Assembly: GCA_034231615.1 (NCBI GenBank)
Contig: CM067316.1
Span: 62,395,353-62,459,352 of the forward strand
DNA length: 64,000 nt
Direction: 5' to 3'
From: Meghimatium bilineatum
Lineage: Eukaryota; Mollusca; Gastropoda; Stylommatophora; Philomycidae
Shown: in pieces, positions 2,198 to 62,435 of the stretch
Numbering within the stretch: the first letter of the stretch is position 1
Layout of the letters: every line of letters begins with the position of its first letter
The notes under the pieces: generated by a model
What the model saw: only the letters and a program-made list of their open reading frames with translations
Database searches by the model: none
Told to the model about the DNA's origin: nothing
Position numbers and translations under genes: made by a program

Positions 2198-2640
2198 CAT
2201 ATATTTCATCCAGTACTTCACGGTCTGGTATAGATTTCATCTATAGATTTAACTAGCATGGTTCGGACATGTATGCAGGCACGATTCCTTGTCAAAAACA
2301 ATACTGCAGGGAACTGTCGAGGGTGGAAGAAGCAGAGGAGGACAAATAAAGACATGGACAGACAATATCAAGGAATGGACAGGGCTAGATATTTCCACAC
2401 TCATCCGCATCGCTGAGGATAGAATTCGCTGGAGGACTCTGTGTGCTGAAGCATCCAATGTGGTACCCCTACGACCCTGAAGGGTTATGGGTTTATTGAT
2501 TGATTGATAGATTTCATCCAGTACTTCACGGTCTGGTATATATTTCATCCAGTACTTCACGGTCTGGTATATATTTCATCCAGTACTTCACGGTCTGGTA
2601 TATATTTCATCCAGTACTTCACGGTCTGGTATATATTTCC
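2198..2640 (+). repeat. 31-bp minisatellite split by a LINE insertion
   Basis: The unit is ATATATTTCATCCAGTACTT plus ACGGTCTGG-type sequence, 31 bp long. One full copy and a partial lie at 2198-2241; about four more run from 2507 to 2640. The LINE fragment at 2242-2506 interrupts one unit exactly and is bordered by a 12-bp duplication of array sequence, so the array is older than the insertion. Confidence 0.95.
2242..2506 (+). mobile_element. 5'-truncated LINE ORF2 tail with TSD
   Basis: An open frame (stop at 2478-2480) encodes the far C-terminus of a LINE ORF2: FGHVCRHDSLSKTILQGTVE, then GGQIKTWTDNIKEWTGLD, then IRIAEDRIRWRTL, ending PLRP. The element ends in (TTGA)n-like TTTATTGATTGATTG. 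The flanks carry a perfect 12-bp direct repeat ATAGATTTCATC at 2230-2241 and 2507-2518, the target-site duplication of target-primed reverse transcription. Related tails of the same group lie at 25490-29815 and 61988-62435. Confidence 0.9.
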
Positions 2641-7359: not shown

Positions 7360-7930
7360 TTCTTAATTTGTAATTTTGTCTTCTCTCAAATGGTCACGAA
7401 GGATGATGGAGAGATGCAAGGATGATGGAGAGATGCAAGGATGATGGAGAGATGCAATGATGATGGACTGTGTAAGGATGATGGAGAGATGCAAGGATGA
7501 TGGAGAGATGCAAGGATGATGGAGAGATGCAAGGATGATGTAGAGATGCAAGGATGATGGAGAGATGCAAGGATGATGGAGAGATACAAGGATGATGGAG
7601 GGAAGTAAGGATGATGGAGAGATGCAAGGATGATGGAGAGATGCAAGGATGATGGAGGGAAGTAAGGATGATGGAGAGATGCATGCCAGTGTACATTGCA
7701 TCTTTGTTCTTGTGTGTTAGACTTCTTGTTAGCTGAGAATGCTAAGTGTGATATCACTGCAGATGTGTCAACAGATCTGACGGAGGAATCATAAACAGGT
7801 TGGCCCAAACGTATATGCTGCAGTCGTGACAGGAGGCAGTGATTCAGGGATACAGCCACACTGATATGCCTCCTTTCCGGGAAAAACCATGCATCCATAA
7901 ACCCCTGCCCCCCCCCCCAACACAATGTGT
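7360..7930. mobile_element. Family D interspersed element, copy 1, with internal array
   Basis: This shares an ordered set of blocks with 11330-12445 and 58380-58810: TTTTGTCTTCTCTCAAAT, GGATGAT..AGATGCA, GTACATTGCA, TATCACTGC-GATGTGTCAACA, CATAAACC and AGTGTCACC-CAGT. The GGATGAT..AGATGCA block has expanded into the 19-bp array at 7399-7682, while the sequence on both sides follows the other copies. The minus strand encodes DTSAVI-type fragments in all three copies, but no protein family is recognised. Class unknown. Confidence 0.6.
7399..7682 (+). repeat. 19-bp minisatellite, 15 copies, inside family D
   Basis: The unit is AAGGATGATGGAGAGATGC. The array occupies the position where the family D copy at 58680-58710 has a single GGATGATAAAGATATGCA, followed in both by GTACATTGCA. 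It is therefore a local expansion of element sequence. Confidence 0.95.
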
Positions 7931-11329: not shown

Positions 11330-12445
11330 CTGGAATCTGGACTTCTATCTAGTTCAAGGTGCAAAGAATAAAACAACTGCATTCTTTCTAGGCATGTCGT
11401 AGGAGGCAACTAAGTAGATTGGGGAAAGGGGGGGGGGGGTAGGCTGACAGCCTGTGGGAAAATCATTGTCATGACGTCGTCTCAATGTCTTACTTTTTGT
11501 CTTCTATCAAATAATCTCAATGTCTTACTTTTTGTCTTCTATAACATAATCGCTATGGGTGACACGAAGAGGTGTAGAACAAAAGACAATGGAACCTTTA
11601 ACCTTTCTGTGAAAGACTTCTAGATGACATGGAATGCTAGATATGCCATCACTGCGGATGTGTCAACAAATCGATAGAAGAATGATGAAATAATTGACCA
11701 GAGGTGCATGCTGTGCTCCTGGCAGGACGAGGAATCCTGCCATTGAATACTGGCACACGGGAATGTATCCCTTTGAGGACTCAACATGCACTCATAAACC
11801 TTCATTACATAACCATGTCTTTTATGATAACCTTACGTGAGTCATAGTGTCACCTCAGTTACACAACAAAGATAACGTACATGACTCTGGGTGACACTTC
11901 AGTTACACAAATGAAAAAACTTACATGACTCTGGGTGACACTTCAGTTACACAAATGAAAAAAAACTTACATGACTCTGGGTGACACTTCAGTTACACAA
12001 ATGAAAAAAAACTTACATGACTCTGGGTGACACTTCAGTTACACAAATGAAAAAACTTACATGACTCTGGGTGACACTTCAGTTACACAAATGAAAAAAA
12101 ACTTACATGACTCTGGGTGACACTTCAGTTACACAATTGAAAAAACTTAAATGACTCTGGGTGACACTTCAGTTACACAAATGACAAAAACTTACATGAC
12201 TCTGGGTGACACTTCAGTTACACAATTGAAAAAAAACTTAAATGACTCTGGGTGACACCTCAGTTACACAAATGAAAAAACTTATATGTCTCTGGGTGTC
12301 ACCTCAGTTACACAACTGAAAAAACTTACATGACTCTGTGTGACACCTCAGTTACGCAACTAAAAAAACTTACATGACTGGATGACACCTCAGTTACGCA
12401 ACTAAAAACACATGACTCTGGGTGGCATCTCAGTTACACAACTGG
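11330..12445. mobile_element. Family D interspersed element, copy 2, with two tandem regions
   Basis: The order of blocks matches 58380-58810 from GGTGCAAAGAATA and GCATGTCGTAGGAGGCAACT (a module also found at the end of family A) through TTTGTCTTCTAT, CTTCTAGATGAC, CACTGCGGATGTGTCAA, CATAAACC and AGTGTCACCTCAGTTACACA. Two segments are tandemly repeated in this copy: TCAATGTCTTACTTTTTGTC (two copies, 11490-11555) and the GTGACACTTCAGTTACACA segment (array 11849-12445). Confidence 0.6.
11849..12445 (+). repeat. 44-46-bp minisatellite, about 13 copies, at family D end
   Basis: The unit is ACATGACTCTGGGTGACACT, TCAGTTACACAA and a variable A-run ending ACTT. Length variation is confined to the A-run. 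The first copy, AGTGTCACCTCAGTTACACA, matches the single-copy end of family D at 7930-7950, so this is an expansion of that segment. Confidence 0.93.
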
Positions 12446-21545: not shown

Positions 21546-21589
21546 ACCTTTACTATGCAAGTAAATATTTCCTCTAATACGTACGTTCT

Positions 21590-21805
21590 CAAACTCCTGC
21601 GAATTATCAGGATATAGTCCATAGAATGGAAAGTGTTATGTCACGGTTTACAGCTTTGCAGCGATTTTTGCGCCATTCTGCAGGCAAACCCGTCTTCAAC
21701 ATAGCTTTTTGGTTACTTTGACCAAAAAAGGATGTGACAGCGAACTCCACCTCATAAACCTCCTTATTCGTTTCTTATGAGATTCATGGTAAGTAAACAG
21801 TGATA
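21590..21805 (+). mobile_element. Family A interspersed repeat (diverged)
   Basis: GTTCTCAAACTCCTGCGAAT, ATCAGGATATAGTCC, GTCACGGTTTACAGC, CATAAACCTCCTTA and GGTAAGTAAACAGTG follow family A order. Confidence 0.75.
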
Positions 21806-22105: not shown

Positions 22106-22207
22106 CCCACCCTCTATTGTGGTCGTAGTTTATGGATATTCCCATTGTCAATGTGCGCCAGGCATATTCAATGGATGTTGTAAGAACAGATACAGTAAAG
22201 TTCTACC

Positions 22208-22444
22208 ATAACATGAATTAATGCCGTAGGGGTGTGAGATGTTAGCGATCTCACATAACATGAATTAATGCCGTAGGGGTGTGAGATGTTAGCGATCTCA
22301 CATAACATGAATTAATGCCGTAGGGGTGTGAGATGTTAGCGATCTCACATAACATGAATTAATGCCGTAGGGGTGTGAGATGTTAGCGATCTCACATAAC
22401 ATGAATTAATGCCGTAGGGGTGTGAGATGTTAGCGATCTCACAT
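22208..22444 (+). repeat. 47-bp minisatellite, 5 copies, with a hairpin per unit
   Basis: The unit is ATAACATGAATTAATGCCGT, AGGGGTGTGAGATGTTAGCG and ATCTCAC. Each unit holds the inverted repeat GTGAGAT-GTTAGCG-ATCTCAC. The five copies are essentially identical. Confidence 0.96.
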
Positions 22445-25065: not shown

Positions 25066-25345
25066 TCTTCTTCTTCTGCTGCGTTCGTTTTCAAACTCCT
25101 GCAGATTAACAGGATGTAGTCCAGAGAACGGAATGCGTTATGTCATGGTTTACAACATTGCTGCAATATCTGCGCCTTTCGGCATGACACATCCGACTTC
25201 AGCATATCTTTGGGTCACTGACCCTACATGGGATGGGACAGCCAACTCCATCCCATAACCTCCTTAGTCCACTCTTACGACATGCATGGAAGGTAAACAG
25301 TGTTACTATTCTTTGCTCCCCTTTCGGGTCTCGGCAACACACTGG
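25066..25345 (+). mobile_element. Family A interspersed repeat, near full length
   Basis: It begins TTCTTCTTCTGCTGCGTTCG, continues through AACTCCTGCAGATTAACAGG, ATGTAGTCC, GAACGGAATGCGTT, TCATGGTTTACA, GCGCCTTTCGGC and GGGACAGCCAACTCCATCCC, and ends CATGCATGGAAGGTAAACAG-TTTGCTCCCCTTTCGGG. It is about 280 bp with no coding capacity, so non-autonomous. Confidence 0.85.
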
Positions 25346-25489
25346 CGGTCAAATGGGTCATTAAAATGGATGAATTTCCAAATAATGTCTGAAAATGACA
25401 GTTGAGTGGACGTGTTTTAATACTTTTGTGTACGATTTCTCCCTGAAACTCCAGCAATGAAATAGCCATAGAAAACAACATAAGACTTA

Positions 25490-28400
25490 GAAATTATTAA
25501 TAGAAAAAAATGTATTAGCGGATCATAAAGAACAACTGTTAGCAGCTCGTAAACCCCGGTGTTGTGGGCACGTGATGGGACATTCCTCAACGATAAATGA
25601 TGTACTTCACGGTACTATGCAGGGTTTTTAAATGTAGGTGGTCAGATGAAGATATGCTTGGATAATATTAAGAACTGACATGGTATACAGATTCGATACT
25701 CATCAGGATGTTAGAGGGTAGAGATACATGGATGTTTTACTGAACCTAATGTCTCTATATCAGGATGTTAGTGGGTAGAGATACATGGATGTTTTACTGA
25801 ACCTAATGTCTCTATATCAGGATGTTAGAGGGTAGAGATACATGGATGTTTTACTGAACCTAATGTCTCTATATCAGGATGTTAGAGGGTAGAGATACAT
25901 GGATGTTTTACTGAACCTAATGTCTCTATATCAGGATGTTAGTGGGTAGAGATACATGGATGTTTTACTGAACCTAATGTCTCTATATCAGGATGTTAGA
26001 GGGTAGAGATACATGGATGTTTTACTGAACCTAATGTCTCTATATCAGGATGTTAGAGGGTAGAGATACATGGATGTTTTACTGAACCTAATGTCTCTAT
26101 ATCAGGATGTTAGAGGGTAGAGATTTATGGATGTTTTACTGAACCTAATGTCTCTATATCAGGATGTTAGAGGGTAGAGATACATGGATGTTTTACTGAA
26201 CCTAATGTCTCTATATCAGGATGTTAGAGGGTAGAGATACATGGATGTTTTACTGAACCTAATGTCTCTATATCAGGATGTTAGAGGGTAGAGATACATG
26301 GATGTTTTACTGAACCTAATGTCTCTATATCAGGATGTTAGAGGGTAGAGATTTATGGATGTTTTACTGAACCTAATGTCTCTATATCAGGATGTTAGAG
26401 GGTAGAGATACATGGATGTTTTACTGAACCTAATGTCTCTATATCAGGATGTTAGAGGGTAGAGATACATGGATGTTTTACTGAACCTAATGTCTCTATA
26501 TCAGGATGTTAGAGGGTAGAGATACATGGATGTTTTACTGAACCTAATGTCTCTATATCAGGATGTTAGAGGGTAGAGATTTATGGATGTTTTACTGAAC
26601 CTAATGTCTCTATATCAGGATGTTAGAGGGTAGAGATTTATGGATGTTTTACTGAACCTAATGTCTCTATATCAGGATGTTAGAGGGTAGAGATACATGG
26701 ATGTTTTACTGAACCTAATGTCTCTATATCAGGATGTTAGAGGGTAGAGATTTATGGATGTTTTACTGAACCTAATGTCTCTATATCAGGATGTTAGAGG
26801 GTAGAGATACATGGATGTTTTACTGAACCTAATGTCTCTATATCAGGATGTTAGAGGGTGGAGATACATGGATGTTTTACTGAACCTAATGTCTCTATAT
26901 CAGGATGTTAGAGGGTGGAGATACATGGATGTTTTACTGAACCTAATGTCTCTATATCAGGATGTTAGAGGGTAGAGATACATGGATGTTTTACTGAACC
27001 TAATGTCTCTATATCAGGATGTTAGAGGGTAGAGATTTATGGATGTTTTACTGAACCTAATGTCTCTATATCAGGATGTTAGAGGGTAGAGATACATGGA
27101 TGTTTTACTGAACCTAATGTCTCTATATCAGGATGTTAGAGGGTGGAGATACATGGATGTTTTACTGAACCTAATGTCTCTATATCAGGATGTTAGAGGG
27201 TGGAGATACATGGATGTTTTACTGAACCTAATGTCTCTATATCAGGATGTTAGAGGGTGGAGATACATGGATGTTTTACTGAACCTAATGTCTCTATATC
27301 AGGATGTTAGAGGGTAGAGATTTATGGATGTTTTACTGAACCTAATGTCTCTATATCAGGATGTTAGAGGGTAGAGATTTATGGATGTTTTACTGAACCT
27401 AATGTCTCTATATCAGGATGTTAGAGGGTAGAGATTTATGGATGTTTTACTGAACCTAATGTCTCTATATCAGGATGTTAGAGGGTAGAGATTTATGGAT
27501 GTCTTTCTGAACCTAATGTCTCTATATCAGGATGTTAGAGGGTAGAGATTTATGGATGTCTTACTGAACCTAATGTCTCTATATCAGGATGTTAGAGGGT
27601 AGAGATTTATGGATGTTTTACTGAACCTAATGTCTCTATATCAGGATGTTAGAGGGTAGAGATTTATGGATGTTTTACTGAACCTAATGTCTCTATATCA
27701 GGATGTTAGAGGGTAGAGATACATGGATGTTTTACTGAACCTAATGTCTCTATATCAGGATGTTAGAGGGTAGAGATACATGGATGTTTTACTGAACCTA
27801 ATGTCTCTATATCAGGATGTTAGAGGGTAGAGATACATGGATGTTTTACTGAACCTAATGTCTCTATATCAGGATGTTAGAGGGTAGAGATTTATGGATG
27901 TTTTACTGAACCTAATGTCTCTATATCAGGATGTTAGAGGGTAGAGATTTATGGATGTTTTACTGAACCTAATGTCTCTATATCAGGATGTTAGAGGGTA
28001 GAGATTTATGGATGTTTTACTGAACCTAATGTCTCTATATCAGGATGTTAGAGGGTAGAGATTTATGGATGTCTTACTGAACCTAATGTCTCTATATCAG
28101 GATGTTAGAGGGTAGAGATTTATGGATGTCTTACTGAACCTAATGTCTCTATATCAGGATGTTAGAGGGTAGAGATTTATGGATGTCTTACTGAACCTAA
28201 TGTCTCTATATCAGGATGTTAGAGGGTAGAGATTTATGGATGTTTTACTGAACCTAATGTCTCTATATCAGGATGTTAGAGGGTAGAGATACATGGATGT
28301 TTTACTGAACCTAATGTCTCTATATCAGGATGTTAGAGGGTAGAGATACATGGATGTTTTACTGAACCTAATGTCTCTATATCAGGATGTTAGAGGGTAG

Positions 28401-29815
28401 AGATACATGGATGTTTTACTGAACCTAATGTCTCTATATCAGGATGTTAGAGGGTAGAGATACATGGATGTTTTACTGAACCTAATGTCTCTATATCAGG
28501 ATGTTAGAGGGTAGAGATACATGGATGTTTTACTGAACCTAATGTCTCTATATCAGGATGTTAGAGGGTAGAGATTTATGGATGTTTTACTGAACCTAAT
28601 GTCTCTATATCAGGATGTTAGAGGGTAGAGATACATGGATGTTTTACTGAACCTAATGTCTCTATATCAGGATGTTAGAGGGTAGAGATACATGGATGTT
28701 TTACTGAACCTAATGTCTCTATATCAGGATGTTAGAGGGTAGAGATACATGGATGTTTTACTGAACCTAATGTCTCTATATCAGGATGTTAGAGGGTAGA
28801 GATACATGGATGTTTTACTGAACCTAATGTCTCTATATCAGGATGTTAGAGGGTAGAGATACATGGATGTTTTACTGAACCTAATGTCTCTATATCAGGA
28901 TGTTAGAGGGTAGAGATACATGGATGTTTTACTGAACCTAATGTCTCTATATCAGGATGTTAGAGGGTAGAGATACATGGATGTTTTACTGAACCTAATG
29001 TCTCTATATCAGGATGTTAGAGGGTAGAGATACATGGATGTTTTACTGAACCTAATGTCTCTATATCAGGATGTTAGAGGGTAGAGATACATGGATGTTT
29101 TACTGAACCTAATGTCTCTATATCAGGATGTTAGAGGGTAGAGATACATGGATGTTTTACTGAACCTAATGTCTCTATATCAGGATGTTAGAGGGTAGAG
29201 ATTTATGGATGTTTTACTGAACCTAATGTCTCTATATCAGGATGTTAGAGGGTAGAGATACATGGATGTTTTACTGAACCTAATGTCTCTATATCAGGAT
29301 GTTAGAGGGTAGAGATTTATGGATGTTTTACTGAACCTAATGTCTCTATATCAGGATGTTAGAGGGTGGAGATACATGGATGTTTTACTGAACCTAATGT
29401 CTCTATATCAGGATGTTAGAGGGTAGAGATTTATGGATGTTTTACTGAACCTAATGTCTCTATATCAGGATGTTAGAGGGTAGAGATACATGGATGTTTT
29501 ACTGAACCTAATGTCTCTATATCAGGATGTTAGAGGGTAGAGATTTATGGATGTTTTACTGAACCTAATGTCTCTATATCAGGATGTTAGAGGGTAGAGA
29601 TTTATGGATGTTTTACTGAACCTAATGTCTCTATATCAGGATGTTAGAGGGTAGAGATTTATGGATGTTTTACTGAACCTAATGTCTCTATATCAGGATG
29701 TTAGAGGGTAGAGATTTATGGATGTTTTACTGAACCTAATGTCTCTATATCAGGATGTTAGAGAATATACCCCTACGAGTCTACCCCTTGCGGCTCTGAC
29801 AGGTTATTGGCTTTA
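25490..29815 (+). mobile_element. LINE ORF2 tail split by an internal 57-bp array
   Basis: Left of the array the sequence encodes KEQLLAARKPRCCGHVMGHS, INDVLHGT and GGQMKICLDNIKN. These align with GHV-x-x-H, KTILQGT and GGQIKTWTDNIKE of the LINE tail at 2242-2506. The array starts at the codons for LIR. To the right of the array, ATACCCCTACGA...GGTTATTGGCTTTATT resembles GTACCCCTACGA...GGTTATGGGTTTATT at the 3' end of the 2242-2506 tail. So the array lies inside one LINE copy, within the last coding segment. Confidence 0.7.
25702..29763 (+). repeat. 57-bp minisatellite, 71 exact units, born inside a LINE
   Basis: The unit is ATCAGGATGTTAGAGGGTAG, AGATACATGGATGTTTTACT and GAACCTAATGTCTCTAT. 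Length accounting gives 71 units plus 15 bases with no net indel. Substitution variants (GATACATGG/GATTTATGG, AGAGGG/AGTGGG, GGTAG/GGTGG) come in runs. One frame reads RMLEGRDTWMFY, which parallels RIAEDRIRWRTL of the LINE ORF2 end. Units with GGTGG lack a stop in another frame and give a spurious 73-residue frame at 27096-27317. Confidence 0.98.
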
Positions 29816-29834
29816 TTACTATTTCCAATTAGCC

Positions 29835-29989
29835 GGTATCTCTTATAATGTAGAGTGTAGACAGTATCTCTTATAATGTAGAGTGTAGACAGTATCTCTT
29901 ATATTGTAGAGTGTAGACAGTATCTCTTATATTGTAGAGTGTAGACAGTATCTCTTATATTGTAGAGTGTAGACAGTATCTGTTATATT
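29835..29989 (+). repeat. 28-bp minisatellite, 5.5 copies
   Basis: The unit is GTATCTCTTATATTGTAGAG plus TGTAGACA. It lies about 20 bases after the LINE 3' end. Confidence 0.95.
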
Positions 29990-32538: not shown

Positions 32539-32778
32539 GTAGATTTTCGTGTGTGTATGTTTGTGTATCCGGTGAGTATCCTGTGTGCTTTTGAGGATCG
32601 CATGTGGAGCAAAGAATAGCGACATTATTACTTGCCTAGCATGTCGTAAGAAGCGACTTGGGATGTTTGGAGCATGAAATTTGCTGAAATCATCATCAGC
32701 ACTACATCCAAATCCTTTATGTACACTATTTTCACGTGCATCAGATATAATGTAGGACAGATCCCCATCTAAAACAAT

Positions 32779-33117
32779 TACTCCACCATCATGAGATGAA
32801 GAAAGTAATGAGATGTGGACTTATTCCACCATCATGAGATGAAGAAAGTAATGAAATGTGGACTTACTCCACCATCATGAGATGAAGAAAGGAATGAAAT
32901 GTGGACTTACTCCACCATCATGAGATGAAGAAAGGAATGAGAAGTGGACTTACTCCACCATCATGAGATGAAGAAAGGAATGAGAAGTGGACTTACTCCA
33001 CCATCATGAGATGAAGAAATGAGAAGTAGACTTACTCCACCATCATGAGATGAAGAAAGTAATGAAATGTGGACATACTCCACCATCATGAGATGAAGAG
33101 ATGAATGCGAAGTGGAC
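32779..33117 (+). repeat. 43-bp minisatellite, about 8 copies, seeded in LINE ORF2
   Basis: The unit is ATCATGAGATGAAGAAAGGA, ATGAGAAGTGGACTTACTCC and ACC. In one frame it reads HEMKKGMRSG, and the last copy runs straight into GQKQLYNNLLKISLKDFGIN of a LINE. This is the GEL-x-KG-x-RS-x-GGQK site that is also amplified at 50159-50440. Confidence 0.95.
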
Positions 33118-33420
33118 AAAAGCAACTTTACAATAACTTGTTAAAGATCTCACTGAAAGACTTTGGCATAAACCACAACACATGAGAAGATGATACAGAA
33201 AACAGATTTACATACAGCTCTACAATAAACAAGGCGCATATAATGTGTGATATAGGGGAAAATGGAACTAACAGCTCAACAGCGAAGAATAGACAGTTAA
33301 AACCAGATCAAACACCATCAAAAGTGGTCATCCCATGTTCAAACTGTTCAAGGACATTTAGGTCACCACAGGGCTTATCAGTCACCTGCTAACTCATAGA
33401 CAAGAATATGCCTAACTGAA
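33095..33420 (+). mobile_element. LINE ORF2 C-terminal tail with zinc-finger end
   Basis: The reading gives GQKQLYNNLLKISLKDFGIN, a stop, NRFTYSSTINKAH, then VVIPCSNCSRTFRSPQGL and, after a one-base shift, ISHLLTHRQEY. This is the end of a LINE ORF2 that finishes with a C-x2-C...H zinc knuckle. Same group as 40895-41075 and 50159-50720. Confidence 0.8.
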
Positions 33421-33429
33421 TTTCTCTCT

Positions 33430-33715
33430 CTTCTTGTTTCTTCTGCGTTCGTTCTCAAACTCCTGCAGATTAGCAGGATGTAGTCCGTAGAACGGAATGC
33501 GTTGTGTCATGGTTTACAGCATTGATGCGATATCTGCGTCTTTCGGCCTGACACATCTGACTTAGCATGGCTTTGGGTCACTGACCCTATATGATATGGG
33601 ACAGCCAACTCCATCCCATAACCTCCTTAGTCGCCTTTTACGACATGCATGGAAGGTAAACAGTGTTGCTATTTTTTGCTCCCCTTTCGGGCCCTGGCAA
33701 CACACAGGCGAACTC
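33430..33715 (+). mobile_element. Family A interspersed repeat, near full length
   Basis: It begins TTCTTCTGCGTTCGTTCTCA and follows the copy at 25066 to CATGCATGGAAGGTAAACAG, TTTGCTCCCCTTTCGGGCC and AACACACAGGCG. It is placed about ten bases after a LINE tail. Confidence 0.88.
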
Positions 33716-33851
33716 AATTTCATAAAGTGGATGTTACAAATTGCAATCAGCATCATGTGATGGAGAAACCAAACCGGTAGCTTATTCACTGAATTCTATA
33801 ATTTAGAAGTGGTTCTGTATATACTGAAGAACTGTCTGTCTTCTATAGAGA

Positions 33852-34052: not shown

Positions 34053-34909
34053 AACTTGTTGGAGCTTGCCGTTGCTTGTTCTGAAAATGTTTGACAAGTA
34101 AAAATTCAACCTTGCCCACGTGATCATGTGTTCAAATGTCGATGTTCAAGATTACGTGGGACGAAAGTAACAACGAGGTGAACCACTAATAGTCTGGCGA
34201 CCAGGCAGCTGCACATTAGTGATAAATGTCATGAAAATATTACTTTTGCAAGCTGGACTTAGTGTCAAGAGGCAGGTGGTCACAACGAAAACAAATGTCA
34301 GGCCTGGACATTTTTTTGGGTTGAATCGTAGTTTGGCTAACTGACCTGACCTATTAGCTCATTTTTTTACCTCTCTCTCTCTCTGGCCTGTTGACTGTTG
34401 GTTACATTACTTTTAGTTTTATTGACTATTGATTAACTTTTTTCTTAGATTTTTGGACTATTGATAATTTTTTTTTCTTCTTTGTTTTGTTGACATTTGA
34501 TAAAAAATGTTCTGTTTAAATTTCAGGTCTGCATTTTGATAAAATTTGATGACCTTTTTTCGCAAAAATTCCCCAAGGGATGGTATTTTTTGGTTTTTCA
34601 TCCACCTTTTGGTCAAGTTCCTAGTACTGAAAGTCATGTTCCGATTTGTTAGGAAAGGGGAAGGGGTGGGGAGGGTTGTTGAAGATATTCTGAAATGGAT
34701 GCTTTCAGAAATGGAAGATTGCCTCCCAGCAAAGGCATGGAAAATGGATGCTTTCAGAAAGGGAAGATTGCCTCCCAGCAAAGGCCAGGCATGGGAAATG
34801 GATGCTTTCTGAAAGGGAAGATTACCTCCCACCAAGAGCTAGCCATGGGTATTCAACAGTTTTATTAGATCGGTGACATTAGTGATAACTCCACGGTGAA
34901 TTGTCAGAG

Positions 34910-35182
34910 ACCAAATGGGGGACAAAGAATAACTGCACTGCTACCTGCCAAATTTGTCATAACAAGGGACTACAAAGATCTTGAGGTGGAACTTGCTGTT
35001 TAATCCAAAAGAGTTACAAATAATTACCCAGAAACAATGCAGAAGTTGGATGTCAGACTGAAAGGCGCAGATATCGCAGGTAAATTGTAAATCATGGCAC
35101 AGCTTCTTCCGTTTTCTGGCCTACATCCCGCTAAGAATTTTAATCTGCAAGAGTCTGAGAATGAACGCAGAAGAAGATATAT
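34910..35182 (-). mobile_element. Family A interspersed repeat
   Basis: The plus strand shows the family backwards: GACAAAGAATAACTG, GAAAGGCGCAGATATCGCAG, AATCATGGCACAG, CCGTTTTCTGG, GAGTCTGAGAATGAACGCAG and AAGAAG. Confidence 0.75.
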
Positions 35183-42830: not shown

Positions 42831-42904
42831 ATAGTAACGTGTGTTATTAGTCCCCAGCCTGTTCGGTCTTCCCTGAGTGATTTAGTAACCAAGGCTTGAG
42901 GCTT

Positions 42905-43050
42905 GGCTGTCTGCGTCACGTCACTGCACGCTCTCATTGAGAAATCTCAGTTATACGCCGCGCGTCACGTGGCCTGACTACCCCTCACTCAAAGTAGGGT
43001 TAGTCCCACGACCTTTAACTCGGTCACAAGCTCTGACACGGTATAAAAAC
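42905..43050 (+). promoter_or_regulatory. Core promoter: CRE-like half-sites, E-box, TATA box
   Basis: Two abutting CGTCA half-sites (42914-42923, CGTCACGTCA) resemble cAMP-response half-elements. An E-box CACGTG lies at 42966-42971 in a locally CpG-rich stretch. TATAAAA at 43042-43048 would place transcription start near 43070-43080, about 85 bases before the chosen ATG. Midnolin in mammals is an immediate-early gene, and CRE-type sites would fit that, but this link is inference. Confidence 0.5.
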
Positions 43051-43158
43051 ATTGTAGGTCGCTTGTGTGTGCCGACTATTCCTACAAATCTGACAATTCA
43101 AAGTTGTGATAATTTCTCACTGGAATTGAACATTATATTTCTTATTTTCTTACAAAAT

Positions 43159-43376
43159 ATGGAAAGAAAGTTTAACGTTTCAAACAGGAAACCTACATCA
43201 AGAATACGCTCTACTAGAAGACGACCTGGCTGCATACGTCTCTTTGTCTGTCCTACAACTGGGGGACGGTTAGAGATCTCTGTTTCCCCACGGGAGACCG
43301 TCCTCGGACTTAAGGCTGCCCTGGCTAGAAAACTACGAGTTGTACCAGCCAAGATTACCCTCATTTACAAAGACAA
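43159..43376 (+). CDS. Midnolin/Stuxnet-like protein, first coding exon (ubiquitin-like domain start)
   Basis: The exon encodes 72 codons plus two bases. Residues 1-24 are basic. Residues 25-73 match the first two-thirds of a ubiquitin fold: CIRLFVCPTTGGRLEISV (beta hairpin with the TTG turn), SPRETVLGLKAALARKL (helix) and VPAKITLIYKDK (third strand). ETV-x-GL, the K/RL-x-V spacing and L-x-x-KD resemble midnolin more than ubiquitin itself. The ATG has A at -3 and G at +4 and sits downstream of the TATA box. An upstream in-frame ATG at 42937 lies before the TATA box and is rejected. The exon ends at donor CAA/GTAAGT (43377). Midnolin captures nuclear regulators for proteasomal degradation without ubiquitination; the fly relative Stuxnet acts on Polycomb. 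Other ubiquitin-like proteins remain possible. Later exons were not found. Confidence 0.6.
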
Positions 43377-43382
43377 GTAAGT
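43377..43382 (+). other. Splice donor of the midnolin-like exon
   Basis: GTAAGT follows CAA, close to the MAG/GTRAGT consensus. It interrupts a lysine codon after its second base, and the frame would stop two codons further on if unspliced. Confidence 0.65.
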
Positions 43383-44929: not shown

Positions 44930-45237
44930 AACTACACCTGTATTGCCGGAACCCAATAGGGGAGCACATAATAGTAACACTGTTACCTTCAATGTATGTT
45001 GTAAAAGATGATTAAGGAGGTTTAGGGGGGCTGGCTGCCCCATCCCATATATAGTGAAAGTTACCCTATTTATGATATATAAAGTGTTATTTATACCCGG
45101 AAGTCTTGCTGAAGTTGGATGTGTCAGGTCGAAGAGCACATATATCTCAGTAAAGCTGTAAACCATGACACAGTGCATTCCGCTCTGTGGATATATCCTG
45201 ATCATCTGCAGGAGTTTGAGAACGAACGAAGACAAAG
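44930..45237 (-). mobile_element. Family A interspersed repeat, near full length
   Basis: On the plus strand it reads backwards: GGAACCCAATAGGGGAGCAC, ACCTTCAATGTATGTTGTAA, CCCATCCCATATA, GATGTGTCAGGTCGAAGAGC, AAACCATGACACAGTGCATT and GCAGGAGTTTGAGAACGAAC. Confidence 0.82.
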
Positions 45238-45593
45238 AAATTTAGCGAGATTTGCGATACATCTTTGTTTATTAGTTGTTTGTGCTCTGTGAAAAGTGAA
45301 TGAAACACTTAAGCCAACATACATGAGGCGTGATACATACATACAACATACATACAGGTGACCACCGATTCAATGTTCCTTGATTTTCAACGTTAGTTAG
45401 AAATTCGGTTACCCAGTTTCTCAAAGAAATAGCACACAAGTCAGCTGTTTGCTGTTTCCTGTTACGCCCTCTGAACTTGTGGTTTGACCTTATCTACACA
45501 TCGATTTTTATTTCTCGCTACAAATTCTGTTGGTTGAGAGTGTACTTGATGTGTTATATCTGTGCTTTCAAACGCATTATTCTTCTAATCATA

Positions 45594-47603: not shown

Positions 47604-47857
47604 TGAGATAATTTTAAAACAGATTGACCTTCATCTATAGACATGTTGTTAGCAGTAGGAACGGAAGATGCGCTGAAGCTGCCTCATTAGTGCAAACTGG
47701 AGACTGACACAATGATTACAACGACTAGACAGCGATTAGTGAAACCCCATATTAAATGTGACACTATGAACAAAAAAATGTGACACTATGAACAAAAAAA
47801 TGTTCACTTACTGTGCAGAATTAAGATGATGTGCCCGTTTTTTACAGAGTATGAAAG

Positions 47858-48112
47858 GGTAGCAAAGAATAACACTGTTTACCTTCCATGTATGTCGTAA
47901 GAGGCATCTAAGTAGGTCGTGAGGTGCAGTTTGAAGTTCCATCCCATATAGAATCAAAGTCACCAAGAAGCCATTTTCAATCCAGATGTGTCAGGCCGAA
48001 AGGTACAGACATCGCAGCAAAATGTAATCTATGATGTAATGCCTTCCGTTCTCAAATTAATTTCTGTTAATCTGTAGGAGTTTGAAAATGAACGCAGAAG
48101 AAGAAGAAGAGG
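47858..48112 (-). mobile_element. Family A interspersed repeat, near full length
   Basis: Plus-strand reading in reverse order: AGCAAAGAATAACACTGTTT, ACCTTCCATGTATGTCGTAA, CCATCCCATATAG, GATGTGTCAGGCCGAAAGG, CAGACATCGCAGC and GAGTTTGAAAATGAACGCAG with AAGAAGAAGAAGA. Confidence 0.82.
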
Positions 48113-48481: not shown

Positions 48482-49248
48482 CACGATTTATAGTTCAAAT
48501 ATTGTGTAAACACATCAAGAATGATTACTACTAACTACACGCTTTATAGTTCAAATATTGTGTAAATACATCAAGAATGATTACTACCAACTACACGCTT
48601 TATATAAGATGCAGAATAGGACAGGCAAAAACAACATTCAGAAAAATGAAAAATATACTGTGTAATAAGACCTTGTCATTAGAGGTGAGAAAGAGAGTTC
48701 TGCAGTGCTATATAACCCCTATACTAACATATGGGTGCGAGTCTTGGACAATAAACAAACTAGAAAGTGGGAAATTGGAGGCAACGGAGATGTGGTTCTA
48801 CAGAAGAATGCTGAGAATACATGGACTGCCAGAAAAACTAATGTAGAGGTGTTGAAAGAGTCAAATGCGAAACGGACCTTAATCAACAATATAAGAAAAA
48901 TGCAACCTTATTTTTTTGGCCACTTCATGAGACAGGCAGGTTTAGAGAACATAATCACAACAGGCAAGATTGAAGGCACCAGAGACAGAGGGCGACAACG
49001 TAAGAAAATATTAGACAGTTTGACAACCTGGCACGGCAGGGAAACAACAACGACTTTGATACATAATACTGTGGACAGAGAGCTGTGGAGAGCCATGACC
49101 GCCTACTCCACCCGCCATGGCACCTGATGATGATGACACGCTTTATAGTTCAAATATCGTGTAAACACATCAAGAATGATTACTACCAGCTACACGCTTT
49201 ATAGTTCAAATATTGTGTAAATACATCAAGAATGATTACTACAAAAAG
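48482..49248 (+). repeat. 56-bp minisatellite split by a LINE
   Basis: The unit is CTACACGCTTTATAGTTCAA, ATATTGTGTAAATACATCAA and GAATGATTACTACCAA. About two copies lie left (48482-48604) and two right (49136-49248) of the LINE, which interrupts one unit and duplicates 12 bases of it. Confidence 0.94.
48605..49135 (+). mobile_element. 5'-truncated LINE with 12-bp TSD inside a minisatellite
   Basis: It encodes RCRIGQAKTTFRK, YGCESWTINKLESGK, EMWFYRRMLRI, then after a one-base deletion ARKTNVEVLKESN, FGHFMRQAGLENIITTGKIE, GTRDRGRQRKKIL and DRELWRAMTAYSTRHGT with a stop. Target-site duplication ACACGCTTTATA lies at 48593-48604 and 49136-49147. The 3' tail is GATGATGATG. Sister of 19005-19612. 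Confidence 0.92.
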
Positions 49249-50020: not shown

Positions 50021-50158
50021 CATCTATTTGCTAAACAGTATTCAATGAAGACTTTTGTGTCATGTATTCCATTATTCACGTGCATTTCGTTGGTGGGCGT
50101 TGTCGGGCAACACACATTATATAATTAGTGATCTATGTCAGAGAATCTCCTGCCAAAT

Positions 50159-50440
50159 ATACTTCTCTATGGTAGCTGGAGAAGGGTACACTATACTTCT
50201 CTATGGTGAGCTGGAGAAGGGTACACTATACTTCTCTATGGTGAGCTGGAGAAGGGTACACTTTACTTCTCTATGGTGAGCTGGAGAAGGGTACACGATA
50301 CTTCTCTATGGTGAGCTGGAGAAGGGTACACGATACTTCTCTATGGTGAGCTGGAGAAAGGTACACTATACTTCTCTATGATGAGCTGGAGAAGGGTACA
50401 CGATACTTCTCTATGGTGAGCTGGAGAAGGGTACACGATC
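50159..50440 (+). repeat. 35-bp minisatellite, 8 copies, seeded in LINE ORF2
   Basis: The unit is TACTTCTCTATGGTGAGCTG plus GAGAAGGGTACACGA. In one frame it reads ILLYGELEKGTR; the last copy continues in frame into SQGGQKTHYKNSFKTSLKAF of a LINE. Confidence 0.96.
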
Positions 50441-50720
50441 TCAAGGTGGACAAAAGACGCACTACAAGAACTCATTTAAGACTTCACTGAAAGCCTTTGA
50501 AATAAACCAAAAACATGGGAAGAACATGCACAAAATAGATCTACATGGCGCTCTACAGTCAGAAAGAGCGCATTATATTGTGAAAAGAGGAGAAAGGCAG
50601 AAGATCAACAGCGGAGAGTAGCTAGAAAGTTACGGATGGTCTACAGTGGTCATTCCATGCCTGAACTGTCCAAGAATATTTGCTGCTCGAATTGGCCATC
50701 TACAAATATTAGGTTGAACA
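50159..50720 (+). mobile_element. LINE ORF2 C-terminal tail with zinc-finger end, carrying an array
   Basis: After the array: GGQKTHYKNSFKTSLKAFEI, then, in a shifted frame, NKPKTWEEHAQNRSTWRSTV, KSALYCEKRRKAEDQQRRVA, and STVVIPCLNCPRIFAARIGH. This is a typical ORF2 end: GEL-x-x-G...GGQK-x-x-YK, A-x-NR-x-x-WRS, KR-x-AE-x-Q, then a C-x2-C finger. Same group as 33095-33420 and 40895-41075. Confidence 0.85.
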
Positions 50721-52744: not shown

Positions 52745-53745
52745 TACTACATGAAATGTTTAGATTTGTGGGGGAGGACAAAGGAACCAGAGAAGCTGTA
52801 CAGAGTATCCGGCTTTTGATAGATAAATATATAGAAGTTCAAAACATGATCTATATTTGCTTCATAGACTACAGCAAGGCCTTTGACAGAGTCCAACATG
52901 AAAAAATGAATCAAATGTCTTCAAGAAATAGGCATAGATAGACAAGACATCAGACTGATTAGAAATATATATTGGGAACAGACTGCATCAATAAGGTGTC
53001 AAAACAGCTACTCTCCATACATAGAAATAAGAAGAGGGGTAAGACAAGGATGCATTTTATCACCAAGCCTATTTAATATCTACACAGAGAATATTTTTAA
53101 AAATATAGAAGAAATGTCAGGACTCAATATCAATGGGAAAATAATAAACAACCTTAGATATGCAGATGACACTGTTCTTTTAGCAGAAAGTGAACATGAA
53201 CTACAAAGACTAATAGATCAAGTCAATAAATCAAGTAATGAATATGGACTGGATATAAATATTCAAAACACAAAAACCATGATAATCAGCAAAGACACAG
53301 AAGAACAGGAGGTAAACATAAACATACAGGGAGAGAAACTACAACAAGTAAAACATTATCAATATCTTGGACACATAGTCACAAATGATGGCAGATGTGA
53401 AACAGAAGTTAAAAGGAGAATAGTAATGGCTAAAAGTACCTTCAATGACATGAGGAAATTATTAATATCTAAACAAATTACAAACAAGTTAAAAATGAGA
53501 ATTATAAAATGCTACATCTATTCTATATTAATGTATGGCTCAGAAACATGGACACTAAATAAATAATTAGAAGACAAAATTGATGCCTTTGAGATGTGGG
53601 TATATAGAAGAATATGGAGAACATCATGGAAAGAGAAGAAAACAAATAAAGAGGTGCTAAAAACACGTAATATGAAGAAAGAATTACTAAGAGAAATAAA
53701 TATCAGACAAATACAATATTTTGGACATTAAAAGACCTGACACCT
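52745..53745 (+). mobile_element. LINE reverse transcriptase fragment with YADD
   Basis: This is the best preserved RT in the window. Blocks: FRFVGEDKGTREAV, then FIDYSKAFDRVQH (catalytic D), a one-base frameshift near 52905, IEIRRGVRQGCILSPSLFNI, LRYADDTVLLAESEHEL (YADD at 53159-53170), NTKTMIIS, HYQYLGHIVTNDGR, KRRIVMAKSTFNDM, MYGSETWTLNK with a stop at 53564-53566, EMWVYRRIWRTSWKEKKTNK and YFGH. The 450-base frame 53114-53566 is intact. The 5' part (endonuclease and RT0-2) is absent, replaced by the 50-bp array; the 3' end runs into a 24-bp array. Confidence 0.93.
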
Positions 53746-58380: not shown

Positions 58381-58810
58381 CCAACAGTGGCTTGGGCGTC
58401 TAGTCAGGGTGCAAATAATATGGTCACTGCCTTCTTTCCAGATATGTCGTAGAATGCGAATAAGGAAAGTTAAGGAGAGTAGGACAACCTGTTACTTATG
58501 AAAAATTCTTTATTGTCACATCTTGTCTTCTAAATTTCATACGTTTGTCTTCTTTCATATAATCTCTTCTAAATTTCATACGTTTGTCTTCTTTCATATA
58601 ATCTCTTCTAAATTTCATACGTTTGTCTTCTTTCATATAATCTCTTCTAAATTTCATACGTTTGTCTTCTTTCATATAATCCACGTGGATGATAAAGATA
58701 TGCAGACAAGCGTACATTGCACATTTGTCCTTTTGGGGCAAACTTCTAGATGACGGGGATTGCTATAAAATGTGTTATCACTGCGGATGTGTCAAGAAAT
58801 CTGAAGAATC
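58380..58810. mobile_element. Family D interspersed element, copy 3, with internal array
   Basis: TCTAGTCAGGGTGCAAATAA, CTTTCCAGATATGTCGTAGA, TTTGTCTTCTTTCATATAAT, GGATGATAAAGATATGCA, GTACATTGCACA, CTTCTAGATGAC and TATCACTGCGGATGTGTCAA follow the order of copies 1 and 2. The TTTGTCTTCT block is amplified at 58522-58682; the GGATGAT block, amplified in copy 1, is single here. Confidence 0.62.
58522..58682 (+). repeat. 39-bp minisatellite, 4 copies, inside family D
   Basis: The unit is TCTTCTAAATTTCATACGTT plus TGTCTTCTTTCATATAATC. The same element segment is duplicated, independently, at 11490-11555. Confidence 0.96.
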
Positions 58811-59865
58811 GTTAGCTAGTTAGCCGAGACTCTTGCCGAGGTAGTTGCAACATGAAGTAACACCTCTACGCCCGGTGAGCACTGTTGAGCTGCCTTAGGA
58901 AATGGAAGTCCCAGAAACCATTGGAGGACGGCAGTAGTGAACGCAACCGTCATCCTCACACGGATAAATTCAGTCGTTCACCCTTTGTAGTTAAAGACAA
59001 ACCAAACACTTGCCACATTAACCCCAATCAAATTTCTGACTGGGCGTACCATATTTTGCAAATTTTTAAATGCTGGGCCCTATGTGTCGTAATATAACCA
59101 ACTCGCACTCACGTCTACAGTTAAAGAGCTCTTCTGGTAATGATGAGAGTAATCTCCTACTTAATCCAATCAGCATACGCGCAGAACAATCACGTGATCA
59201 CAATTACATCATCCTCTGCAGTGTTCTCAGATATCAATTGATTAGTTTCATACAGGCTCACGATGATGTTTCTTAGGTCGATATGATATTTTGATTAATA
59301 TTATTGTGTCCTTGTCTCACGAAAAAGTTCTACTCATTTCCCGATTGTTTCCCCCACAATTCATTGTCTAGGCCAGGGTAAAACATTATCGACGTGGAAT
59401 CCTCGATGTGTTTCCAGCACGCAAGACGTTGCGACACACCCAGCTTAGCAAACAGTGAGGTCTGATAACAACACCAATGCGTCTTGTACATTTATACAGC
59501 ATCAACAAACTCCCTTTTAAGTCCAGGTCGGTGTCTACACCTATTGATCACTTCCGATGTTTATCCAAAAATCCATTATTTAATTTTTGCTGTAACGCCC
59601 ACCACTTCGCCTACTGTAAAACCAATGTTTCTCAAAGTGGGACATACATAATCATCTGGGGGACATCGGAGACTTGAAGGATGCCATGGAGAGAATTTTT
59701 GAAATGGGAAAGGGGGGGGGTGTCCCTTACACACATTCGTCCAAAAGACGGCAGCCACTTGAACGATAAACAATAATTGTAGCTATTGTCTATCCCCATG
59801 TGAATAATGGTTGATCGTATCCACACTTGCTGTTAATCGTAGGGGTGGGACTTTAAGCTGTCGTT
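58811..59865. other. Unassigned sequence
   Basis: Short frames only. At about 59618 a TGTTTCTCAAAGTGGGACA motif recalls hAT-type ends, but no matching partner was confirmed. Confidence 0.35.
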
Positions 59866-60940: not shown

Positions 60941-61007
60941 AGACAAGATAAGACTAAATGTTCAAGATATTGTCATCAACTGCCCTAAACAACTTGTCTG
61001 TCTGCTT

Positions 61008-61262
61008 CTTTTCCTTATACATTCGTTCTCAAACTCCTGCAGATTAAGAGGATGTAGTCCGGAGAACAAAATGCTTTGTGTCATTGGTGGCAACTGTGCT
61101 GTGATATCTCCGCCTTTGTGCCTGACACGTCCGACTTCAGGCATGATGTCTGGGTCACTATGAAGTTACACGGGTTGGCGCAGTCAATTCTACCCCATAA
61201 CCTCTTTAGTCACCTTTTGCAACATGCATGAAAGTCAGTGTTGATATCCCCCCCCCCTCCTT
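61008..61262 (+). mobile_element. Family A interspersed repeat, near full length
   Basis: CATTCGTTCTCAAACTCCTG, CAGATTAAGAGGATGTAGTC, GTGATATCTCCGCC, CTGACACGTCCGACTTCAGG and ACCTCTTTAGTCACCTTTTG-CAACATGCATG follow the family on the plus strand. Confidence 0.82.
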
Positions 61263-61264
61263 TT

Positions 61265-61985
61265 TCAGGCCCCATCAAAATAGAACAAGCCTGCATATAA
61301 GTTTTGTTATAATGTGTCTTTTTAGATATGCTAAACGTGTCATCTTAGCGGATGTTTCAAACTAAAACATCATCAACAAACCCATAGCCCTTCAGAGCCG
61401 TAGTGATGTCACTTTGGAAACAACACAAACATTTCGCCATGCCTCTTTGTTATCAGTTCCTTGTTTGAGTGTGAAGAATCTTACCCCTGTTCAGTCTTTA
61501 ATATTATCAATCCATACTTTTCTCAAACATCAGAACTATCTTAATGTAGTTGTGATGGCCTTTCCATCCATGTTTGTGAGAGATGGATCCACCCGAGTCA
61601 TTGTGAATATTTGAAACAAAGTAAATGACAAGAAATTTGGTTAGAGTATTGCAAAAGTAGACATAAAACAATAAACATAAAATTGAGAGCGAAACTGCAC
61701 GTGCGATGATGCAACATATATCTAAAAATATCTGCACGTGAAGCGACCTTTGCCAATGGCGTCATTATACGTCTATTTTGGGATATAAATAAAATGGAAG
61801 AACGTGTGTCTGTCAGTTTTACAGATGCATAAAAATGGATACTGCAACATCTGTAAGATTAAAGTAATAAATGTGTTTGCTATCATTGGATGCCGTGCTG
61901 GTGAAAGCTAGCATGGATCTTTTTTCACAAAACATGGAATTTCAGAAGTGACTATCTATCTATCCACCTTTGATGTTTTCTTTCA
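61265..61985. other. Unassigned sequence
   Basis: No gene or recognised repeat. Confidence 0.35.
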
Positions 61986-61987
61986 GT

Positions 61988-62435
61988 AAAACAATACTGC
62001 AGGGAACTGTTGAAGATGAAAGAGGCAGGGGACGACAAATTAAAAGTATGGATAGCCAACATCAAGGACTGGGATGACAAGATATTTTCCTTACTCGTCC
62101 ACATCGTTGACGATATAAATCGCTGAAGGGATTGAACGAATGAGCGTGAGTCAATAACGGGAATTGGGGGTGAGGACGGATGTGGTCCGTAGAGAACACC
62201 TGACAAAGATTTCAAAAAGAGCAATGAACCAACATAGAACCGGAACCATGAGCCGTTATACCCTGAGAGATTTACTGAAGCGGAGATCTGAGCACCTATG
62301 GACGTGTCCGGTGTGTGAAGAGGATAATCAAAATACCTAATACCTAATCTCTGAAGAATTATGTATGTTGCTGCATCCAATGCCTACCCCTACGTCCCTG
62401 ACGGGTTACGGGTTTACAGATAGCTAGATCTATCC
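61988..62435 (+). mobile_element. LINE ORF2 tail interrupted by a family C insertion
   Basis: AAAACAATACTGCAGGGAAC, GACAAATTAAAAGTATGGAT and CATCAAGGACTGGGATGAC match the LINE tail at 2242-2506 (KTILQGT, GRQIK, NIK-x-W). The match resumes after 62350 with GCATCCAATGCCTACCCCTACG and GACGGGTTACGGGTTTA. The gap is filled by family C. Confidence 0.8.
62129..62350 (+). mobile_element. Family C element with target-site duplication
   Basis: It is inserted into a LINE tail with CTGAAG at both junctions (62123-62128 and 62351-62356). The open frame at its end reads LTKISKRAMNQHRTGTMSRY, LRDLLKRRSEHLWTCPVCEE and NT-stop, followed by CTAATACCTAATCT. The clean insertion shows family C is mobile; the A/T-rich tail suggests retroposition. 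Confidence 0.7.

Follow-up and report, generated by a model that had tools for sequence, protein, structure and literature searches.

A 57-bp minisatellite in the tail of a LINE copy of the slug Meghimatium bilineatum, very probably expanded in place

A 57-bp tandem array with 71 full units lies in a window of 64,000 nucleotides from the slug Meghimatium bilineatum (Stylommatophora; Philomycidae). The window is the whole stretch analyzed, positions 62,395,353–62,459,352 of the forward strand of contig CM067316.1 in GenBank assembly GCA_034231615.1. The array is flanked by the tail of a long interspersed nuclear element (LINE) and is very probably an in-place expansion of a segment from that single LINE copy.

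Tandem Repeats Finder (TRF) reported a period of 57 bp, 71.3 copies, 98% matches, and 0% indels at 25702–29763 (window positions; Table 1). Cut every 57 bp from 25702, the array yields 71 full units, all in register without indels, and 15 bp of the next unit. An earlier note on this DNA had described 71 exact units; number and register hold, but exactness does not, as only 35 of the 71 are identical to the consensus. The remainder fall into five variant states: A25T+C26T (23 units), A19G (6), A14T (2), A25T+C26T+T35C (4), and those three changes with A38T (1). Six columns vary, one of them as a singleton. Any two units differ by 2.4% on average, and adjoining units by 1.6%. The variant states are strictly nested, with neither A19G nor A14T combined with A25T/C26T in any unit. 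Like variants tend to lie together: 35 of 70 neighbour pairs are alike and 24.6 are expected, a value reached in 0.24% of 5000 shuffles. GC content is about 36.5%.

The genome (1,612,235,226 bases, 32 contigs) was searched with a four-unit stretch. At least 44 matches were obtained, at least 23 in the array and at least 21 elsewhere, and 20 of the 21 other places were fetched. Fourteen of these are LINE tails with a single unit and LINE letters on both sides, of the kind that the earlier note had proposed to look for at other loci. The window unit served as the probe, and the set is hence biased towards it. Of the other six places, L011 is interrupted within the unit, L019 ends inside the tail, and L012, L009 (extended as L029), L016, and L023 have other tandems. 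A tail consensus of 324 bp was derived from the 14 single-unit copies, which lie 10.6 to 25.2% away from it. It translates as LRWYRHVMRHSSMTKDVLQGTVEG..WLDNIKDWTGCEVSKLIRMVEDRDTWRSFCTKCLNVTPLRP followed by a stop, ending in ..DWTGCEVSKLIRMVEDRDTWRSFCTKCLNVTPLRP at that stop, and the DNA beyond continues to GGGTTATGGGTTTTATTATT. We take this peptide to be the end of a LINE open reading frame 2 (ORF2); the part read covers the last roughly 100 codons. Within the aligned stretch, TTATTATT is present in 13 of the 14 single-unit rows. Alignment starts vary among the copies and the 3′ end is common, as in 5′ truncation. Five copies (L011, L019, L028, L069, and L077) have further upstream sequence in common. 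No longer copy of the family was found in 7 upstream stretches.

The tail consensus contains exactly one unit, in the same phase as the window. Against it, the window flanks with one unit score 833, the flanks alone 607, and the flanks with two units 785. A score of 833 was attained neither by 1000 shuffled units (maximum 734) nor by 1000 other 57-mers of the window (maximum 704). The true unit phase ranks first among the 57 rotations, with a runner-up at 830. The unit alone scores 204 (best of 1000 shuffles, 104), the left flank at 25500–25701 scores 502 (best of 300 shuffles, 233), and the right flank at 29764–29835 scores 142 (best of 1000 shuffles, 111). By these alignments the array and both flanks belong to one LINE tail. 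The earlier statements that the array sits within a single tail, that the LINE 3′ end picks up after it, and that a consensus of this LINE should hold one copy of the unit are all borne out. The note had also read LINE ORF2 blocks beside the array. GHVMG, GGQMKICLDNIKN, and RMLEGRDTW are indeed present, but in three different frames of 25502–25760, each with stops, and the window copy is therefore a relic.

A genome-wide search for the 57-bp junction (≤3 mismatches) gave 71 matches, 71/71 in this array, and 0 for the control. The array is thus a single-place minisatellite and not a satellite family, for which arrays of the unit would be expected at many places. Its unit is homologous to a transposable element (TE) consensus at the right place, and single-unit TE copies occur elsewhere, which makes it a TE-derived minisatellite. 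With one unit in the LINE consensus and a junction private to this array, the proposal of a minisatellite born by amplification inside a mobile element is upheld. The left flank and the consensus agree at 113 of 151 letters, a difference of about 25% compared with the 2.4% mean between units. Units so much closer to each other than the decayed LINE copy is to its kin suggest that the present units spread recently or were kept alike, and a recent spread is plausible.

The array would have begun when a 5′-truncated LINE copy, now about a quarter diverged from the family consensus, gained a tandem duplication in the last ORF2 codons. The duplicate would then have grown in situ to 71 units through repeated copying of whole neighbouring units, probably by slippage or unequal exchange. 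The first duplication could have been a direct 57-bp event ending at CTCAAT, or a 70-bp event with a 13-bp loss; both fit about equally. The second route is hinted at by a left breakpoint identical to that of a 70-bp class of arrays in the same tail. The remainder of the last unit appears, from the alignment, to have been lost through an internal deletion. The array is most likely without function for the slug.

Table 1. Coordinates of the array, its LINE copy, and related LINE tails in the window
Feature	Position	Strand	Evidence
Left part of decayed, 5′-truncated LINE copy (ORF2 end)	25502..25701	+	Alignment start 25502; 113/151 identical letters
57-bp units, 71 full, from LINE ORF2 end; consensus peptide RMVEDRDTW	25702..29748	+	TRF, unit list, consensus alignment
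Beginning of last unit, 15 bp	29749..29763	+	Unit list, alignment
3′ end of the array's LINE copy (ACCCCTACGA..GGTTATTGGCTTTATTACTATT), with local duplication of ~15 bp	29764..29831	+	Alignment end 29831
Related LINE tail, copy A, no array at this position	2242..2506	+	73% identity to consensus, 191 columns, 2304-2494
Copy B, more diverged related LINE tail	61360..61560	-	Alignment
Copy C, related LINE tail split at about 62130-62343 by ~214 bp of other sequence	61986..62425	+	Alignment

Other arrays have formed in the same tail. The 70-bp junction, which joins CCCTAC to ATCAGG, has 145 genome matches (≤3 mismatches in 28 letters; control 0) at 21 or more places among the matches listed, and all 21 were read. 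TRF copies in this class number 2.0 (L012, L065), 2.8 (L072), 3.8 and 3.9 (L075 and L070), 6.0 (L066, L069), 14 (L063), and 45.9 (L029). Shorter units are found at L077 and L078 (63 bp), L074 (60 bp), L071 (51 bp), L076 (37 bp), L067 (28 bp), and L064 (24 bp). One junction and no such array called was recorded at L060, L061, L062, L068, and L073, with the second unit cut off at L061. The window unit begins at the same letter of the tail as the 70-bp unit, lacks 13 bp of it, and has scattered changes. A spacing search gave 32 matches at 5 places and 11 in its reversed control, so that it is less clean than the junction and boundary searches (control 0). It identified a new array at 21.79 Mb of contig C17, whose units recur every 57 to 61 bp and which has a different junction before ATCAGG. 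L077 and L078 are local segmental duplicates on C17, with arrays of 1,109 and 1,473 bp; their 3′ flanks are 96.8% identical over 1,411 columns and their 5′ flanks 91.5%. Unequal arrays between near-identical flanks indicate that array lengths change. Of the first 20 places read across the genome, 14 have one unit; other copies of the tail have about 2, 3, 4, 6, 14, 46, or 71.

An ordinary satellite array between two unrelated elements, LINE-like by chance, was considered against the related tails of the window. The joined window site scores 351 against copy A at 2256–2510 (best of 500 shuffles, 235), each array flank scores above all 500 shuffles there, and the unit between flanks is equalled by 4 of 1000 shuffles. 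Several observations weigh against an expanded LINE segment. Aligned alone to copy A, the unit is unremarkable (matched or exceeded by 73 of 500 shuffles). The unit between flanks is not significant against copies B (162/1000) and C (147/1000), as chance likeness would predict, and neither is the left flank (82/500 and 144/500). The last unit calls for an additional internal deletion under either birth model, and the longest repeated word of the variant map is within chance length (45% of shuffles), so block duplications within the array are not demonstrated. The likeness of the units can also be explained by long homogenization, and the array length is known from one assembly. Taken by themselves, the window copies make the case for one LINE only suggestive; the genome-wide copies settled it. 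Chance likeness was ruled out by the joined-score controls against the tail consensus, with 14 contiguous single-unit copies and an array junction at one genomic place, and is deemed refuted, its probability being negligible. An assembly artefact or collapsed repeat is very improbable, as the variant units can be placed in an ordered map, both flanks come from one LINE, and PacBio HiFi reads were the starting point of the assembly (PMC10770140). The array length may nevertheless be wrong by a few units. Long homogenization, keeping the units alike, is unlikely though more credible than either. It would account for 98% identity without indels, and the different lengths of the segmental copies L077 and L078 show that arrays turn over. 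The few variable columns and the absence of mosaic units are equally compatible with recent expansion. The earlier note had taken the missing indels as a sign of recombinational homogenization. That argument was dropped as uninformative: 36 of the 44 window arrays of ≥3 copies also have 0% indels, and with six variable columns few indels are expected here whatever the mechanism.

Expansion within the window LINE copy leaves two histories for the seed, and the evidence between them is mixed. A LINE master copy with a dimer of about 70 bp may have spread by retrotransposition, with single places, the window included, merely lengthening an inherited seed; this is rather doubtful. Alternatively, tandem duplication may favour certain breakpoints in the tail, and separate copies would then have become same-junction minisatellites, each after its own insertion, a proposal that we advance tentatively and below even odds. 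An inherited seed would explain a 70-bp junction common to at least 21 of the places listed, at 2 to 46 copies, and a window unit that begins at the same letter of the tail as the 70-bp unit, is 13 bp shorter, and has scattered changes. A single clade of duplicated copies is not rejected (approximately unbiased test, p 0.16). Yet the window's 57-bp junction is private to its array, and the places with the 70-bp junction, at least 21 among those listed, amount to about 1 to 2% of the 2,735 matches to the tail boundary. On a flank tree, itself nearly a star, duplicated copies are scattered: 13 changes are needed, against a mean of 12.4 for shuffles, and 377 of 500 shuffles need no more. This tree has 36 rows with the first 60 columns removed, 18 duplicated (the window and 17 of the 21 places) and 18 single; L070, L074, and L076 were not included and L029 was dropped for short overlap. 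Rows counted as "single" lack the 70-bp junction; among them are L016 and L023, with other tandems, as well as L011 and L019. Mean flank distances are 0.349 between duplicated copies, 0.312 between single copies, and 0.332 for mixed pairs. Units within one place often share letters without counterpart in other rows (by eye: L065, L066, L068, L069, L073), also against inheritance. Between places, first units match at 0.837, last units at 0.811, and first with last at 0.819, with no clear first-first excess. A unit's own partner is its nearest unit at 7 of 17 places, which clearly favours neither history. This unit comparison covered 17 of the 21 places; L064, L067, L071, and L076 were excluded as strongly altered, and the altered L074, L077, and L078 were retained.

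The left breakpoint, between CTC and ATCAGG, is used in the window (57 bp) and in the 70-bp class, and apparently also in the 57–61-bp array on C17. Slippage at a strong direct repeat found no support, as other parts of the tail show homology as good as that between both breakpoints. Few places allow an estimate of junction overlap. It is 3 letters at L140 and, at L145, L164, and L086, one short of a full unit (about none). By array length, it is 1 or 2 letters at L063, L065, L066, and L069. The tail consensus folds into a hairpin, an arm of which lies at the left breakpoint; z is only -2.0, with an equally good fold in 6 of 200 shuffles. The hairpin is a lead only, and no compensatory changes for it were found in decayed copies.

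The frequency of arrays in the LINE tail was estimated by census. The left tail boundary (29 letters, ≤3 mismatches) has 2,735 genome matches and a control of 0. From 100 boundary matches listed, 80 new copies were read in listing order; 19 listed matches were left unread and L061 had been read earlier. Census copies are exact matches to the 29-letter boundary on contigs C1 to C9, and the census therefore favours well-kept copies. L121, L122, and L123, LINE-tail places on C3 related by local segmental duplication, have the same flank, so the 80 copies are not all independent. TRF rows were obtained in 10 of the 80, and 7 were counted as internal tail arrays after L090 and L106 (TTA-tail microsatellites) and L134 (from the tail end into the flank) were set aside. 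The seven (L086, L087, L135, L140, L144, L145, L164) have units of 25 to 53 bp. Six of them form three pairs with a common junction on different contigs: L087 with L144 (a junction also in L023), L135 with L140, and L145 with L164. Each junction occurs in just 2 of the 80 copies. Seven arrays in 80 stretches of about 112 bp correspond to roughly one per 1,280 bp. In the window, an array occurs for every 739 bp of non-array sequence, and an array of ≥3 copies for every 1,058 bp. The comparison is rough, since the TRF score was 30 in the census and 50 in the window. At densities this close, the LINE tail is not especially prone to arrays and serves as a ruler for births. Tail arrays about as dense as window arrays may bear on the TRF share of this genome.

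The starts of minisatellites are usually hard to read, since the single-copy ancestor is gone. Some 2,700 parallel tail copies would allow births, breakpoints, and copy-number steps to be measured in a fixed sequence. If breakpoints are indeed preferred, these copies would amount to a natural replicate experiment for birth rate, junctions, and first steps.

TE-derived minisatellites are already known as a kind, and the slug array adds a member with an unusually readable natural experiment. In the human genome, 7,276 of 31,472 minisatellites come from mobile elements (Ahmed and Liang 2012, PMC3389668). That study reports hotspots within elements and starts mostly without explanation by known mechanisms. 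As in the slug, a stretch of a mobile element turned into an array in place, units are closest to each other, and hotspot regions exist. The human Alu classes, however, average 2.30 to 2.42 copies against 71 in the slug LINE, and the GC content of the slug array falls below the 40% filter used in that study. LINE ORF2 and 3′ ends are among the listed sources of satellites (PMC9659126). PROsat, the common cetacean satellite, and chicken HinfI from CR1 likewise take their unit from a LINE ORF2 end or 3′ end; they are described as satellite DNAs (PMC9659126), whereas the 57-bp slug array is at one place. Elements with tandem repeats at one internal place in many copies include LTR12 and L1PA (PMC3389668) and the DINE/Helitron central repeats (PMC9659126), and this parallel of a built-in internal repeat may, by analogy, apply to the 70-bp class. 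They differ from the slug tail, which is single-unit at 14 of 20 places and has several units and junctions in one tail. No paper dealing with this array, or treating this LINE tail as an origin of minisatellites, appeared in the literature surveyed, which was mostly judged from listings.

According to the genome paper, the M. bilineatum assembly comprises 25 chromosomes and 7 scaffolds from PacBio HiFi reads and contains 34.08% LINE and 19.46% TRF repeats (PMC10770140). In window positions 1–64000, 63 non-overlapping arrays of period ≥10 cover 27.2%, above that TRF share, and 44 of them have ≥3 copies. Among these 44, tested against a 172-kb base, the arrays at 7399, 37787, and 58526 have relatives aligning through one unit and ≥20 bp of each flank. 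One dispersed repeat has arrays at a similar internal position with units of 19, 35, and 39 bp (7399–7903, 11348–11800, 58399–58849), and a second such set has units of 43 and 35 bp (32778–33359 and 50158–50681).

Directly left of the array's LINE copy is a member (25066–25383) of a family of dispersed sequences, each about 300 bp long (..CAAACTCCTGCAGATTA..). Other members lie at 33429–33741, 61005–61247, 21569–21805, 47833–48110, 44939–45239, and 34896–35177. Similar sequence comes after LINE letters in L019 and L028; the family may be a short interspersed nuclear element or a miniature inverted-repeat transposable element. Within 2199–2639, a 31-bp motif borders copy A, in one copy to its left and in 4.3 copies to its right, which would reflect either insertion into an array or an array formed from a target-site duplication. 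A 47-bp array at 22207–22444 has 5.1 identical copies. Its unit with 16 bp of left flank and 99 bp of right flank matches L065 at 1516–1677, and on the minus strand the unit contains CACCCCTACGGC, which resembles the LINE tail. By this likeness it may be another LINE-tail array.

Rfam and tRNA searches of the window returned nothing, and no relative was found among viral contigs. Nine window frames were searched against Pfam. RVT_1 was matched at 52910–53563 (E 9.6e-20), a reverse transcriptase fragment that adjoins more arrays and need not belong to the LINE family of the 57-bp array. A GCFC match at 48550–48843 is sub-threshold (E 0.048). A weak ubiquitin-like match at 42889–43377 (E 3.8e-4) is below the curated cut-off and is perhaps a real exon.

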